DNA of 64,000 bases. Source: an uncultured Bacteroidales bacterium (GTDB lineage Bacteria; Bacteroidota; Bacteroidia; Bacteroidales; UBA932). The stretch lies in assembly GCA_944322815.1 (NCBI GenBank), contig CALUQB010000007.1, positions 1 to 64,000 of the forward strand, in the 5' to 3' direction. Below, piece after piece: positions 44,669 through 50,450 of this stretch. The notes under the pieces were generated by a model. That model did no database searches. It had not been told where the DNA came from and worked only from the letters and a program-made list of their open reading frames with translations. A program made the position numbers and the translations under genes. The stretch's first letter is position 1, and each line of letters starts with the position of its first letter.

Positions 44669-46054
44669 TCATTTCAAGAACCTTTTGATCAGTTTCTCCT
44701 TGGTCGCCGAATACGGCTGATACCTCATCGGAAGATCAAGCCAGAACGGCTTGTCCACGATGCTCTTCAGGTGAGAAAAAGTTTCGAATCCGAAACGGCC
44801 GTGATACTGTCCCATGCCGCTTTCTCCCACTCCTCCGAACGGGAGTGACTCCGAGGCCAGGTGAATGATCGTGTCGTTCACGCATCCTCCTCCGAAATGC
44901 AGACCCGAAAGGAAAAACTCTTTCTGCTTCCTGTCTTTCGTGAACAGATATGCCGCCAAAGGTCTTGGATGGTTCTCGACATAGCGGATGACCTCTTCAG
45001 GTTCCTTGTATGTCAGTACCGGCATCAGCGGTCCGAAAATTTCTTCCTGCATGATCCTGACATTGTCACAGTCCTTGTCCGATATGTTTCCGAGCCGGAA
45101 AACCGCCGGGGATATCTTCATCCTTTCTTCGTCAGTGAAACCACCGAATATGCATTTTCCTCTGATTTCCTCCATCATACTGCACAGACGGTCGAAATGT
45201 TTCCGGTTTATGATTTTTCCATAGTCGGGATTTGCCAGCTGGTCGAGTCCGTACATCCCGAGGATTTCCCTTTTGCAGTTTTCCAGGAAACTGTCCACGA
45301 TGCTTTCGTGGACAATGACGTAGTCCGGAGCTACGCAGGTCTGCCCGCAGTTGAGGTATTTCCCGAATACTGTCCGGGCAGCGGATACTCTGACATCTGC
45401 CGACGGCGTGATTATCACAGGGCTTTTCCCACCCAGTTCGAGGGTGACCGGGGTGAGATGGCGCGATGCCTTTTCCATCACCAGCCGTCCTACGGTCTTG
45501 CTACCGGTGAAAAAGATATAGTCGAATTTCTGTTCCAGCAGGTCAGAATTCACATCGCGTCCTCCTTCCACTACTGCGGCTTCTTCTTCGGTGAAGACAG
45601 CGTTGACCAGTTTTTTGACTGCCGCCGATGTGGCAGGGGAGTAGGCGCTCGGCTTCAGAATGACCGTATTCCCGGCTGCAATGGCACTGACCAGAGGTGA
45701 CATGCAGAGCAGGAAAGGGTAGTTCCACGGACTCATGATCAGGACATTGCCGTAAGGCTCATGGATGATCCTGCTGCAGGCAGGGAATTGTGAAAGCGGG
45801 GTTCTGACCCGGCGAGGCCTGCTCCATCTTTTCAGATTCCGTATGGCGCAGGACAGTTCAGACAAGGTCATTCCGATTTCCGTCATGTAGGCTTCGGTCC
45901 GGCTTTTTCCCAGGTCTTGCGCCAGGGCAGCCGATATTTCTTCTTCCCCGGACATTATTTCTTGCCTGAGCTTTTCCAGCCTTTCAAGTCTCCTGTTTAC
46001 GGAAAGAGTCCCTCCTGACCGGAAGAACTCTCTCTGTCTTTCCAAAATTTCCAT
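44669..46054 (-). CDS. Aldehyde dehydrogenase (class 3-like)
   Basis: 461 residues, the length of the class 3 / fatty aldehyde dehydrogenase group. Oxidises aldehydes with NAD(P). MSPWNYPFLLCMSPLVSAIA (~108-127), the nucleotide-binding FTGSKTVGRLV (~180-190), the catalytic Glu in LELGGKSP (~206-213), the catalytic Cys in NCGQTCVAPDY (~240-250) and EEIFGPLMPVL (~333-343) are present. It has an AGAAAGGA ribosome-binding site before ATG 46054. A TTTG-N19-TACTTTTG promoter lies 137 bp upstream on the minus strand inside the 46-48 kb segment. Ends 4 bp from the palindrome. Confidence 0.93.
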   Translation of the reverse strand: MEILERQREFFRSGGTLSVNRRLERLEKLRQEIMSGEEEISAALAQDLGKSRTEAYMTEIGMTLSELSCAIRNLKRWSRPRRVRTPLSQFPACSRIIHEPYGNVLIMSPWNYPFLLCMSPLVSAIAAGNTVILKPSAYSPATSAAVKKLVNAVFTEEEAAVVEGGRDVNSDLLEQKFDYIFFTGSKTVGRLVMEKASRHLTPVTLELGGKSPVIITPSADVRVSAARTVFGKYLNCGQTCVAPDYVIVHESIVDSFLENCKREILGMYGLDQLANPDYGKIINRKHFDRLCSMMEEIRGKCIFGGFTDEERMKISPAVFRLGNISDKDCDNVRIMQEEIFGPLMPVLTYKEPEEVIRYVENHPRPLAAYLFTKDRKQKEFFLSGLHFGGGCVNDTIIHLASESLPFGGVGESGMGQYHGRFGFETFSHLKSIVDKPFWLDLPMRYQPYSATKEKLIKRFLK

Positions 46055-46076
46055 ATCGAATCCTTTCTGTTTTATC

Positions 46077-46093
46077 GGTGTGGAATTTATTTC
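46077..46093. repeat. Left 17-bp direct repeat flanking the inserted segment
   Basis: GGTGTGGAATTTATTTC, identical to 48301-48317. It lies between the aldehyde dehydrogenase start and its predicted promoter. The bases before it (ATC) continue the arm of the trpS hairpin, as expected if the hairpin was split here. Confidence 0.7.
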
Positions 46094-46190
46094 AGATTAT
46101 GAACGATTTTATATAATTGTTTGGAGAATAAATATTTAACCGAGTATCTGAAAATAATGGTAACGATTTACTGTCAAATAACACTTTATG

Positions 46191-46222
46191 CAAAAGTAGT
46201 CAAAATCTACATCCGGGCAAAA
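46191..46222 (-). promoter_or_regulatory. Full Bacteroides-type promoter (TTTG-N19-TACTTTTG) facing the aldehyde dehydrogenase
   Basis: Minus strand: TTTTG at 46222-46218, a 19-nt spacer, TACTTTTG at 46198-46191. This is the only promoter in the window in which both elements match at the expected distance. It predicts a leader of about 130 nt that includes the left 17-bp repeat. The 10-bp repeats lie 14 bp upstream. Confidence 0.65.
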
Positions 46223-46236
46223 CCATTGGCTATTTT

Positions 46237-46276
46237 TAGTCGTAATTAGTCGTAATTAGTCGTAATTAGTCGTAAT
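46237..46276. repeat. Four tandem copies of TAGTCGTAAT
   Basis: Four perfect head-to-tail copies of a 10-bp unit, one helical turn per copy, between the 3' end of the AlbA_2 gene and the -33 element of the aldehyde dehydrogenase promoter. The phasing and position (about 55-95 bp upstream of the predicted start) suit a regulator-binding array. A copy-number-variable microsatellite is the alternative. Confidence 0.75.
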
Positions 46277-46304
46277 TCGACATATTTGGTTGGAAAGTAT
46301 CGAT

Positions 46305-47981
46305 TTATGACTTAGCATACCACATCCTGCCTTTAAGAATAATTATCCCTGCTTCTTTCATTTCCACAAGAATGTTCCCGACCATTCGTTCCTGCTGTTC
46401 CGGAGTCTTGGTTTTAGGAAGCACATCTTTGAGATAGTCAAATATCGCATCTCGCTTGGTTCCTGCCGAACCAGCATTTTGAAGATACTGCAAAATCATT
46501 TGTTGGAGTTTACCTTTATCCAGTCCTCTGGTGCGAGTATAATCTGGCAACTGTTTTGTCTTTTTAGCTATATCAAGGGATATGCTATATTCAGAAACAG
46601 TCCCTTCTAAAAGTCCTCTATTCAATAAGTCTATCACATTCGCTTCAGAAATTCGACGTCCTTTTTGTACTGAGTCCAAAAGAATACAATCCTCCAATGT
46701 CAATGTGTTGTTTTCCTTGAGTAGCTGTGTGTATTTTTCATTGATAGTATTTCCATATATTGTCACACCAACCTCTTTATTCAATACATCTATTTCGTAA
46801 TCCGGCATCGGGAAATGGCGACGCCTTTGTTCATTGAACATCTTTTTAATGCCACGGCTTACGGTGTCTATCATGTTGAAATTCACCATTGCACGACAAA
46901 GACACTCATTTCGGAAATGACGTTGAGGCCCTTTGGTTTCCAAAGCCTTTTGCAAAGTGCCAGGAATAAAACTACCTCCATTTGCATAGTAAAGCCATCC
47001 CGGATTTTCTACAAAATTGATACGTTGCTGTAAAGTATAATCCTGATGTGCAATGGCATTATGCAGTGCCTCACGAATAGTGTAGTCGTCATATTGCTTC
47101 ATTGTTTCCGGGAATAGTGTTCCTCCTGGCAATTCCCTCATTGTCAGATTGTGTATTTTGCTCAAGATTTTGTCAACTGTGAGAATAAATGGAGCAGTGA
47201 AATGTTCATAATCTATGACATTTTGGAATTCATCCCGTAAAGTCCATGTGACTTCAACTACAGCAGGACGAAGTTTAAGTACAGAAACAGGTTTACCCAA
47301 CAGAATAATGGCTGCACGAGTCAGTTTTCCATCTGTCATTATTCCACTATTGGAAAGAAAATCTTCCACTGTCCATGTGTCAATTTCCTCAGAAGAAATA
47401 TTGGAAGAATGTACCTTTTTGAACATAATACGAGCTTTTGCTACAGCCAATTCATCCAAATCCGCTATTGTCGCATTAGGAACAATTTCTGCGGACCAAT
47501 CTTTGGCTTCAAAGACAGGTTCTTCCAGAATAACGGCAAGCCGTTCTTGTGTCATCTCTACCAATGAATCTTCGACACGCTGCCACGCTTTTTTATGAGC
47601 ATAAACTGGACGTCGAGATAAATGTTTTGGAATATGGATTATCCAAACCGTCTTATGTGTATCCTCTGTAGTATATTCGTCGATACTCAATCCTTCGGAA
47701 GAAAGATTGGTACAATGCTCTATCAGTTTCCATACAGCAGATTGGGCATTCAAATTAAATTTGGATAAATCTGTCCCAACAATTGCCAGTGTTTTATCCT
47801 GCACTCCGATAACAAGATGACCTCCCTCCATATTGGCTATGGCGGATACATATGAAATTACATCATTTTTTTCATCTCCGGCAAAGGAATTCTTGAGATT
47901 TTTCATCTCTTTCCACTCACAGCGTGCATTCTCTTGCGGAAACTCACGGAGTAAATATTTTTGAAGTTCTTTTGCTGTCAT
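46305..47981 (-). CDS. AlbA_2 (Schlafen-type) domain ATP-binding protein
   Basis: 558 residues. N-terminal AlbA_2 domain: ENARCEWKEMKNLKNSF (~17-33), DVISYVSAIANMEGGHLVIG (~40-59) with the conserved N-GG core. The middle is a GHKL-like ATPase segment as in COG2865 regulators: TIREALHNAIAHQDY (~302-316) with the N-x-x-x-H pattern, and WLYYANGGSFIPG. A winged-helix-like C-terminus follows. Members are annotated as transcriptional regulators or RecG-like proteins; AlbA_2 also occurs in phage-defence proteins. Codon use is AT-rich and unlike the neighbours. It is the only gene in the repeat-bounded segment; its promoter was not identified. Confidence 0.85.
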   Translation of the reverse strand: MTAKELQKYLLREFPQENARCEWKEMKNLKNSFAGDEKNDVISYVSAIANMEGGHLVIGVQDKTLAIVGTDLSKFNLNAQSAVWKLIEHCTNLSSEGLSIDEYTTEDTHKTVWIIHIPKHLSRRPVYAHKKAWQRVEDSLVEMTQERLAVILEEPVFEAKDWSAEIVPNATIADLDELAVAKARIMFKKVHSSNISSEEIDTWTVEDFLSNSGIMTDGKLTRAAIILLGKPVSVLKLRPAVVEVTWTLRDEFQNVIDYEHFTAPFILTVDKILSKIHNLTMRELPGGTLFPETMKQYDDYTIREALHNAIAHQDYTLQQRINFVENPGWLYYANGGSFIPGTLQKALETKGPQRHFRNECLCRAMVNFNMIDTVSRGIKKMFNEQRRRHFPMPDYEIDVLNKEVGVTIYGNTINEKYTQLLKENNTLTLEDCILLDSVQKGRRISEANVIDLLNRGLLEGTVSEYSISLDIAKKTKQLPDYTRTRGLDKGKLQQMILQYLQNAGSAGTKRDAIFDYLKDVLPKTKTPEQQERMVGNILVEMKEAGIIILKGRMWYAKS

Positions 47982-48300
47982 AATTAATGAGATTTAATTT
48001 TTGACCAAATGTTTAGTCCTAAATTAAAAATCCCCAAAATCCGCCTAAACCACCAATTATCTGAATCTTTTTCGTATTTTCCCGGGCTGTAAAATTAACT
48101 TATCGAGAATTGTCGAAAGCTATGATAAATTATGTATATTGTTGAAATATGGTAACTTAGGATGTATGATCGTCCATACCCACGTAAACCGTTCATGAGA
48201 ATGTTTTGTGGACATTCGAAAGTAAGCAGCATCGTATACGTGGAAGAGATTTACCGGCCCGATCATTCACGATCTGTATAAGCAAAGGTATTGTATGATA
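47982..48300. other. Non-coding AT-rich stretch upstream of the AlbA_2 gene
   Basis: 319 bp with no credible gene on either strand. It holds a GAATGT-N7-ACATTC inverted repeat near 48200 and several AT-rich tracts that could contain the AlbA_2 promoter, but no clear TAnnTTTG box on the minus strand. Belongs to the putative inserted segment. Confidence 0.5.
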
Positions 48301-48355
48301 GGTGTGGAATTTATTTCCGGCACTGTTTTTTCTGTGCCGGAAAAAATTCCACACC
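48301..48355 (-). terminator. Long hairpin after trpS (right arm carries the 17-bp repeat)
   Basis: GGTGTGGAATTTATTTCCGG... pairs with ...CCGGAAAAAATTCCACACC (arms 48301-48323 and 48334-48355, one-base difference), with a loop of TGTTTTTTCT. It begins 12 bp after the trpS stop on the minus strand. It could terminate trpS-recA transcription although the U-tract is missing, perhaps because the 3' side was replaced by the insertion. Confidence 0.6.
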
Positions 48356-48367
48356 GATATTACATCC

Positions 48368-49357
48368 TCAGAAAGATTTGAAACCCACTGCCTTTCTCAC
48401 CTGAGAAAGCGTAGCCGCAGCACTCTCCCTGGCTCTCTCACGACCTGAAGCCACCACCTTGGACAGATAAGCATCATCATTGTATATGGCATCAATCCTA
48501 TCCCTGATAGGCAGGGTCATCTTGCAGATATCTGCCGCCAGCTGCTTCTTCAAATCTCCGTATCTGATGCTGCAGTCATTCCATTTTTCTGTGAAATAGT
48601 CCACTGTAGACTGGTCCGATACGAGTTTCAGCAGGGTAAACAGATTCCCTATCACCTCTGGCATAGGCGAATCCGGCTCTGCAGGACCAGAATCCGTCAC
48701 GGCCTTCATCACTTTCTTCGTGATGGTCTTTTCGTCATCGTAGAGGTAAATGCCGTTCCCGTTGCTCTTTCCCATCTTTCCGCTGCCGTCCAGTCCGGGC
48801 ACTTTCACCGCCCCTCCGCTGAATACGAGATTCCGCGGCTCCGGAAAGACTTCTTCCCCGTACATGTTGTTGAACCTGCGGGCGAAAACCCTGGCCAGCT
48901 CCAGATGCTGCTCCTGATCCTTCCCTACAGGTACCCACTGTGCCCTGTGTACCAGAATGTCCGAAGCCATCAGCACCGGGTAGGTAAGCAGGCCTGCATT
49001 TACGTTGTTCGGATTCTGGCGTACCTTTTCCTTGAAAGTGACCGTCCTTTCCAGTTCTCCGACATATGCTATCATATTGAGGAGTACATACAGTTCGCTT
49101 ATTTCCGGCACATCGCTCTGGATGTATATGGCCGATTTCTCGGGATCGAGTCCTGCAGCCAGATATTCTGCCAGAATGGTCTTCACGCTCGCATGGAAAT
49201 CATCCGGATGAGGATGGGTCGTGAGCGAATGAAGGTCTGCGATGAAGAAGAAGCATTTGTATTCGTCCTGTATCCTGACGAAGTTTCTCAACGCACCGAA
49301 ATAGTTTCCAAGATGAAGATGCCCTGTCGAGCGTATTCCGCTTAATACTGTATCCAT
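48368..49357 (-). CDS. trpS: Tryptophanyl-tRNA synthetase
   Basis: 329 residues, normal length. Class I synthetase: SGIRSTGHLHLGNYFGALRN (6-25) carries the HIGH-type HLGN, AYVGELERTVTFKEKV (~97-112) and the KMSKS-type loop is GKMGKSNGN (~192-200). It charges tRNA-Trp in the cytoplasm. The start is 4 bp after the recA stop, so the two are one operon. Ends just before the long hairpin. Confidence 0.97.
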   Translation of the reverse strand: MDTVLSGIRSTGHLHLGNYFGALRNFVRIQDEYKCFFFIADLHSLTTHPHPDDFHASVKTILAEYLAAGLDPEKSAIYIQSDVPEISELYVLLNMIAYVGELERTVTFKEKVRQNPNNVNAGLLTYPVLMASDILVHRAQWVPVGKDQEQHLELARVFARRFNNMYGEEVFPEPRNLVFSGGAVKVPGLDGSGKMGKSNGNGIYLYDDEKTITKKVMKAVTDSGPAEPDSPMPEVIGNLFTLLKLVSDQSTVDYFTEKWNDCSIRYGDLKKQLAADICKMTLPIRDRIDAIYNDDAYLSKVVASGRERARESAAATLSQVRKAVGFKSF

Positions 49358-49361
49358 TTCC

Positions 49362-50393
49362 CTAGTCCTTTATGTTAGCCATCGCTTCCCTGATCTTTCC
49401 TTCTATCTCTTCGCTCAACTCCACATTGTCGGTGAGAAGCTGTTTGACCGCTTCGCGACCCTGTGCCAGCCGGGTGTCATTATAGCTGAACCATGATCCG
49501 CTCTTCTTGATGATGTCGAATTCCACACCGAGATCTATGATCTCCCCGATATGCGAGATGCCTTCTCCGAAGACAATGTCGAATTCCGCCTTCTTGAAAG
49601 GAGGGGCCAGCTTGTTCTTCACGATCTTCACCCTGGTCCTGTTTCCGAGAGCTTCTTCTCCGTCTTTGATCTGGGTAGTGCGGCGCACGTCCACACGTAC
49701 CGAGGCGTAGAATTTCAGTGCGTTTCCTCCTGTGGTGGTCTCCGGGTTTCCGAACATCACGCCGATCTTGTCGCGCAGCTGGTTGATGAATATGCAGCAG
49801 GTATTCGTCTTGCTGATATTGGCGGTAAGTTTCCTGAGCGCCTGGCTCATCAGCCTGGCCTGGAGCCCCATCTTCGAGTCACCCATCTCTCCTTCTATCT
49901 CGGCCTTAGGGGTCAGTGCGGCCACGGAGTCTATGACGATGATGTCTATGGCACCGGAGCGGATCAGGTTGTCCGCTATCTCCAGGGCCTGCTCTCCGTT
50001 GTCCGGCTGGGATATGAGCAGGGTTTCCAGGTTTACGCCGAGATTCTTCGCGTAGGTCCTGTCGAAAGCGTGTTCCGCATCTATGATAGCTGCTATGCCT
50101 CCCTGTTTCTGTGCCTGAGCTATCGCGTGGATCGCCAGTGTGGTCTTTCCGCTCGATTCAGGCCCGAAGATTTCTATTACACGTCCGCGCGGATATCCGC
50201 CGATGCCCAATGCATGGTCGAGGGCAATTGAGCCGCTCGGGATTACTGACACTTCCCATTTAGGCTGGTCTTCCCCCATCTTCATGATCGCACCTTTCCC
50301 GTAATCTTTCTCGATCTTGTCGATAGTAGCCTGCAGTGCTTTCAGCTTCGCTGCGCTCACATCGACATTTTCCTTTTCAACTTCTTTAGCCAT
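49362..50393 (-). CDS. recA: Recombinase RecA
   Basis: 343 residues from ATG 50393 ([16 protein letters not shown]); an upstream in-frame ATG at 50414 is less likely because family members start with MAK. Walker A is in [14 protein letters not shown] (~67-80), Walker B in [16 protein letters not shown] (~140-155), the L2-type [20 protein letters not shown] region (~210-230) is intact. Strand exchange and LexA-type co-protease activity. -7 box at 50451-50458. No LexA-like operator was recognised in front of it. Confidence 0.98.
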
Positions 50394-50450
50394 AAATGTC
50401 TGTTTTATTTTCATTTTCCGGCTCCGGACTTTCCGGCAGCCATAATTTTA

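Follow-up and report, generated by a model that had tools for sequence, protein, structure and literature searches.

An AlbA_2 gene bordered by copies of a palindrome arm beside trpS: foreign origin and possible mode of entry

The way in which defence and toxin-antitoxin genes that lack mobility genes enter genomes is an open question. It is raised by an AlbA_2 gene lying between trpS and an aldehyde dehydrogenase (ALDH) gene, in a segment bordered on both sides by the same 17 bp, of which one copy is part of a hairpin. Was the segment inserted into the hairpin, and if so, by what process? The window analysed here (64,000 nt) is part of contig C7 of its own genome (G000), a 2.68-Mb draft in 64 contigs, whose near relatives carry the label Bacteroidales in the named collection. 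Features of the locus are given in Table 1.

Table 1. Features around the AlbA_2 gene, with positions in the window
Feature	Position	Strand	Evidence or remark
ALDH, left neighbour	44669-46054	-	PF00171, E 1e-85
Left copy of the repeated arm, 26 nt	46068-46093	+	17 nt exact at 46077-46093
AATTTATTTC, part of the left copy	46084-46093		Also at the G052 island end
Stretch homologous to the G052 island tail	46084-48077	-	91.5% nucleotide identity
Four 10-bp tandem units TTAGTCGTAA in the 3' tail	46236-46275	+	
AlbA_2/HATPase_c_4 gene, 558 aa	46305-47981	-	PF04326, PF13749; open throughout
96-nt remnant, 3' end of the upstream island gene	47982-48077	-	Gene of 628-629 aa in G052, L102 and L103
Copy of a second dispersed repeat	48183-48288		Also in C35 and C30 of the own genome; partly 5' of AlbA_2 in G311
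Hairpin of the dispersed palindrome family modelled as R1	48301-48355	+	Arms 48301-48323 and 48334-48355
Right copy of the 17-mer	48301-48317	+	Outer part of the hairpin's 5' arm
trpS, right neighbour	48368-49357	-	PF00579, E 1.3e-63
Presumably recA, named from its sequence	49362-50414	-	Translation; adjoins trpS in several relatives

The repeat, the hairpin and the trpS-ALDH gap

The 17-mer GGTGTGGAATTTATTTC is present at both borders as exact copies on the + strand, and the sequence between them (46094-48300) has a G+C content of 0.377, against 0.519 and 0.512 in the flanks. These observations agree with the earlier note on this DNA, which was also right that the right copy is an arm of the hairpin 3' of trpS and that ATC flanks the left copy. 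The 17-mer sits in a longer repeat of 26 nt (46068-46093 and 48292-48317; 88% identity, three mismatches). The longest exact match between 48291-48368 and 46055-46305 is 17 nt, compared with a maximum of 13 in 300 dinucleotide shuffles; at up to three mismatches, the window holds four matches to the 17-mer (mean of 100 shuffles 0.22, maximum 2). A random scatter of the 17-mer, which would have spoken against the note, was not found: at up to two mismatches, the whole own genome contains the two border copies, the inverted arm (48339-48355) and nothing else.

Deletion of the segment had been proposed to rebuild an uninterrupted palindrome. Joining the flanks in silico indeed extends the contiguous outer pairing from 9 to 13 bp and changes the predicted fold (RNA parameters) from -40.3 to -46.2 kcal/mol. 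However, outer pairing of 9 bp or less also occurs in 10 of the 31 other distinct hairpins read, so the present trpS hairpin is not clearly broken, and the length of the outer stem was rejected as proof of a broken hairpin. Between ALDH and trpS, AlbA_2 is the sole ORF of at least 60 aa on its strand, and three antisense ORFs (72-127 aa) overlap it. No inverted repeats besides the palindrome arms were found at the ends of the insert. Rfam gave no match at gathering score over 45900-48500; the sub-threshold microRNA and Flavo-1 matches there were taken as chance hairpins.

The hairpin belongs to a dispersed family. Seven aligned members keep ATTTATTTCCGG..CTGTTTTTTCTG..CCGGAAAAAAT with few changes, and the outer stem varies by copy with compensating changes. 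In nine of the 22 pairs both partners are changed (a count attained in 1 of 500 shuffles), 86.9% of the alignment cells pair and the covariation score is 0.320 (neither reached in 500 shuffles), with lower values for all slides. The R1 covariance model detects at least 12 distinct sites in the own genome (18 matches, six of them the other strand of a site) and matches in nine of the 13 genomes given, with none in G041, G052, G334 and G340; the seven members used to build the model match by construction, and the site counts are lower bounds, with 150 candidates scored per genome. REP/BIME-type sequences constitute a class of dispersed extragenic palindromes. The present family resembles them in being dispersed, palindromic, mostly extragenic as far as read and sometimes clustered, but differs in its long outer stems and in the compensated variation between copies. 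A RAYT as the mover of the hairpins is unsupported: the sole Y1_Tnp (RAYT-like) match, in C49, is barely over the family cut-off, and its 2.5-kb locus is hairpin-free. An open-access literature search combining repetitive extragenic palindromic sequences with Bacteroidales gave no Bacteroidales paper, only Neisseria by title.

The trpS locus was read in 19 relatives. In 14 of them ALDH lies 9-392 nt after trpS, which leaves no room for the AlbA_2 insert; in the other five it was not found within the locus. The earlier note regarded AlbA_2 at this place without the repeats as the contrary case; the 19 loci do not encode the gene. In G619 trpS is followed by an intact hairpin, with the outer stem TTGGAGGCAG, and then by ALDH, with no insert; 13 further relatives have trpS and then ALDH with neither hairpin nor insert. 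The closest relatives found, G176 (93% nucleotide identity in trpS) and G082 (90%), carry other intergenic repeats in the gap and no hairpin, and neither genome has an AlbA_2 match at E ≤ 1e-30. In G052 the genes after trpS are one that is taken, from its sequence, to be DNA methyltransferase-like and one of 190 aa. Given these differing contents, the gap is a variable spot, and the arrangement predicted for the empty site was found once, with a different stem. An uninterrupted palindrome with a GGTGTGG outer stem was found in no genome read. The gap in G176 and G082 is filled by a third intergenic repeat family with several small palindromes (L192, L193).

Foreign origin of the insert

At other loci, G311 and G052 carry AlbA_2 genes whose proteins are 96-97% identical to that of the window. 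The dS of AlbA_2 is 0.24 against 1.05 for trpS in the comparison with G311, which is another species, and 0.23 against 1.81 with G052, and dN/dS is 0.06-0.07 against three relatives. The low dS relative to trpS, together with the low dN/dS, therefore points to transfer of a protein kept under constraint, and on these sequence comparisons, and by its low G+C content, the insert is foreign DNA. Among the loci retained (80 of 134 relatives), AlbA_2 matches at 92-96% amino acid identity also occur in MAGs labelled Muribaculaceae, Parabacteroides and Bacteroides. No vehicle was found, because all plasmid matches (four records at E ≤ 1e-30) and phage matches (three records at E ≤ 1e-20) are below 60% identity. 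A sequence search of the PDB gave no match to the protein at E ≤ 0.01, and a partial pAgo match in PADLOC (E 7e-10), with two weaker ones, was not taken as its identity. Literature searches on AlbA_2 with defence or Bacteroides gave nothing on AlbA_2 among the matches listed.

Relatives place the gene in larger contexts. AlbA_2 lies at the end of a putative type I restriction-modification cluster in L102 and L103 and of a putative type III cluster in L099 (labels read from translations). In L140 (1512-11939) it ends a set of N6-methylase/specificity genes with a tyrosine integrase (PF00589, PF13102, and PF17293) at the other end, and exact 15-bp direct repeats GTTACAAAGATACAA lie outside both ends. 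The 15-bp match is modest (E 0.044; the same scan gave 13-14 bp matches at five other loci). It adjoins CAAAGATA words, which also follow the tail in L096, L099, L101, L102, and L103. AlbA_2 genes thus form the end of Bacteroidales defence islands whose cargo differs.

The insert contains the end of such an island. Homology to G052 stops at 48077, where the upstream homology to G052, L102 and L103 also ends; this edge falls inside the 3' end of the 628-629-aa gene, which in all three lies between an hsdR-like gene and AlbA_2. L093 similarly retains a short 3' piece of the gene that precedes AlbA_2 in L092. Units similar to TTAGTCGTAA are present in the tails of relatives, as judged by eye. Among the 80 AlbA_2 loci, 48078-48300 matches G311 (L090) alone, via the second dispersed repeat. 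As an island tail joined to another dispersed repeat, the insert is therefore a mosaic, and its sequence identifies it as a defence-island tail rather than a cleanly bounded cassette of one gene. The view of the cargo as one AlbA_2 gene, given in the earlier note, holds insofar as this is the only gene; the rest of the segment is a truncated island tail and another dispersed repeat.

The second dispersed repeat (also in L082, L087, and L074) has inverted ends; a copy stands 5' of AlbA_2 in G311, and that of L082 immediately precedes the tmRNA gene.

Several AlbA_2 units in relatives are flanked by long repeats. L094 is a lone unit that keeps a C-terminal remnant of an integrase (E 3e-10) and is flanked by a 72-bp direct repeat (95.8% identity); the repeats around the units in L101 and L144 measure 71 and 81 bp. 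The long-repeat scan covered 73 of the 81 sequences given (80 loci and the window). An enrichment of long flanking repeats at AlbA_2 genes was considered and set aside as weak: they were found at five of 70 genes and two of 139 control ORFs (76 of the 80 loci, without L138, L139, L145 and L146, less six dropped for short flanks), and two of the five (L100 and L159) and both controls share two repeat-rich loci, without which the counts are three and zero. L097 and L100, on one contig, are AlbA_2 copies about 20 kb apart and 97% identical over 1.86 kb, one of them flanked by a 270-bp direct repeat.

How the island tail may have entered the palindrome

The origin of the 17 bp bears directly on the process. 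The ends of the AlbA_2 units in the window, L091, L092, L093, and L094 agree up to CTRAAATA and diverge soon after, and G052 (L091), which has no match to the R1 model, reads CTGAAATAAATT at the same end of the unit. Therefore 6-10 of the 17 bp also belong to the end of the island itself and match the palindrome arm GGAAATAAATTCC. The rest of the repeat, CCACACC, and the GAT beside it are consistent with the host palindrome. Since the R1-negative G052 carries CTGAAATAAATT at its island end, the 17 bp are not purely a duplicated target; the repeat appears to be only partly a target duplication. Insertion into the palindrome, as first suggested, thus stands in that foreign DNA lies at a palindrome with one arm repeated, and has to be modified as regards the repeat itself. 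The arrangement suggests a join at shared bases, in which duplication of the remaining arm follows from the more outward position of the other junction.

It is probable, if by a modest measure, that an island-end fragment was inserted in a pre-existing palindrome between trpS and ALDH, joined by microhomology on one side and with the arm duplicated. The incoming fragment would be the right-hand end of a mobile defence island, comprising the 3' remnant of a cargo gene, the AlbA_2 gene and the conserved 3' tail, and its target would have been one copy of the dispersed palindrome. Towards ALDH, the 6-10 shared bases would link the island end CTGAAATAA... to the palindrome arm GGAAATAAATTCC.... 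Towards trpS, the junction would lie beyond the same arm, so that the arm stands on both sides of the insert. We infer one-sided, (micro)homology-anchored joining with target duplication rather than the action of a dedicated recombinase; either incoming DNA might be joined, by homology-facilitated illegitimate recombination, or the template might be switched at the palindrome. Homology-facilitated illegitimate recombination, with one anchored and one illegitimate junction, would give the layout seen here. Against this reading count the different outer stem in G619, the other repeats at the site in G176 and G082, and the draft state of the own genome (64 contigs).

It is distinctly less probable that the segment is a deleted integrative element, i.e., that a tyrosine-integrase island integrated at a core in the palindrome (attL/attR with a 17-bp core) and later lost its integrase and restriction genes, leaving the AlbA_2 end. 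The window resembles Bacteroidales tyrosine-recombinase islands with restriction-modification cargo, of which L140 with its right-end AlbA_2 gene and outside repeats is the example, in having direct repeats at both ends (17 bp; 15 bp in L140). L140 combines the integrase, a methylase/specificity gene, AlbA_2 and the exact outside repeats, and L094, whose AlbA_2 tail ends as in the window, keeps its integrase remnant; the repeats of L094 and the window both start at the terminal RAAATA, and the insert has no island sequence past 48077. However, the window copy is a tail only, and a search with the L140 integrase found no remnant in the insert. The earlier remark that the insert has no transposase or integrase holds as far as its AlbA_2-strand ORFs and the L140 search go, although a more complete island elsewhere that bears this gene family does encode an integrase. 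The L140 15-mer is modest as a match, as given above, and unlike the window 17-mer. Moreover, attP would also need to contain CCACACC, because this part of the window repeat is particular to the outer stem of the trpS hairpin.

An older half-arm is unlikely. Here a partial and a full hairpin would have lain close together ancestrally, and the AlbA_2 fragment would have entered between them with nothing duplicated. An arm copy of at least 13 nt occurs near a full hairpin in 12 of the 51 hairpins read (window, C37 and C8 included), and several arm copies are just 65-217 bp away, too close for a usual gene. Because partial hairpins adjoin full ones without room for a gene, the left arm in the window could predate the insertion. 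Yet the partial copies in L235, L247, L251, and L262 extend into the inner stem and loop, whereas that of the window ends within the arm, at the start of the island tail; no trpS-ALDH gap among the 14 read contains a half and a full hairpin, and the stretch duplicated at C8 (see below) is single in G176. Ordinary transposition with a 17-bp target-site duplication and a transposase acting in trans would account for two exact direct repeats at the borders but is very improbable, given that the only end inverted repeats are the palindrome arms, that the duplications vary by case (17, about 19, and 104 bp) and that the island end sequence overlaps the repeat.

Further clear and possible insertions at the palindrome family

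A clean insertion is found in C8 of the same genome (L232:472-1916), where two hairpins are separated by an insert of 1,238 bp that holds a gene of the AbiEii type and an HTH gene (PF08843, PF01381). G176 lacks the insert at this site and has one copy of a 104-bp stretch that is present twice in G000 and begins in the hairpin arm. Immediately to the right of the insert, the sequence is 87-93% identical to G176 for about 1.2 kb and 92-100% identical beyond that; on the left, 575 bp match at 98%. This pattern fits an import of the insert and its right flank from a diverged donor by one-sided homology. Insert-free sites are thus available for the window (G619, hairpin only) and for C8 (G176); the flanking repeat is single-copy in the empty site of C8, and the exact outer stem of the window was found in no empty site.

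The third case, in C37 (L085:5362-6187), is ambiguous as a further insertion at the family. Beyond an intact hairpin lie a gene of the RelE type (PF06296) and an 84-aa gene with no Pfam match; the end of the insert, ...TTGAAATAA, is joined directly to a second arm copy. In one alignment to G176 the overlap is 19 bp, of which 15 bp are exact within G000, but the hairpins are tandem here and the alignment is not unique. All three cases share a junction within the A-rich portion of the arm (GAAATAAATT, GAAATAAATATC, and AATAAAAAATATC). Insertion at the palindrome family is probably not a one-off. With two, perhaps three, insertions at one family in one genome, and with insert-free relatives, the junction rules can be tested directly.

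Pairwise comparison of 25 insertion gaps gave a sizeable duplicated stretch at C8 only (-104), with one other of -7, and none for the window against G619 (+58) or for C37 against G523 and G311. A hairpin lies within 150 bp in nine of the 25 gaps, a count that is no test of enrichment because every locus was chosen around hairpins, with no genome-wide control. As a tentative and rather doubtful generalization, the palindromes could serve Bacteroidales genomes as landing pads for the uptake of toxin-antitoxin and defence genes with no dedicated recombinase involved. The A-rich part of the arm would anchor one incoming end, the other end would be joined illegitimately, and one arm or more of the flank would be duplicated each time.

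Nobusato et al. reportedly described, in 2000, restriction-modification genes of Helicobacter pylori inserted with long target duplication. The C8 case (104 bp) and the AlbA_2 repeats of the relatives (71, 72, and 81 bp) resemble such insertions, as defence-linked genes without a recombinase of their own are flanked by target repeats of variable length. The window differs in that its repeat is 17 bp exact, or 26 bp at 88%, and is partly island sequence. The target here is a repeated palindrome family, and the cargo includes toxin-antitoxin-type pairs. Three papers (PMC3031569, PMC1643837, PMC3154945) describe the insertion of restriction-modification genes with a long duplication of the target. 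In the open-access literature, nothing was found that unites extragenic palindromes, toxin-antitoxin genes, insertion and target duplication.

Family hairpins also border or accompany other genes in relatives. In G311 (L243), a shortened relative of the 84-aa gene of C37 lies near a hairpin. In contig C7 of G082 (L197:3393-4577), an AAA_14/DUF4143 gene that matches PADLOC PDC-S01 (E 1e-182) lies between family hairpins, with a tyrosine integrase gene just past it, and G523 has two family hairpins at a spacing similar to that in G082.
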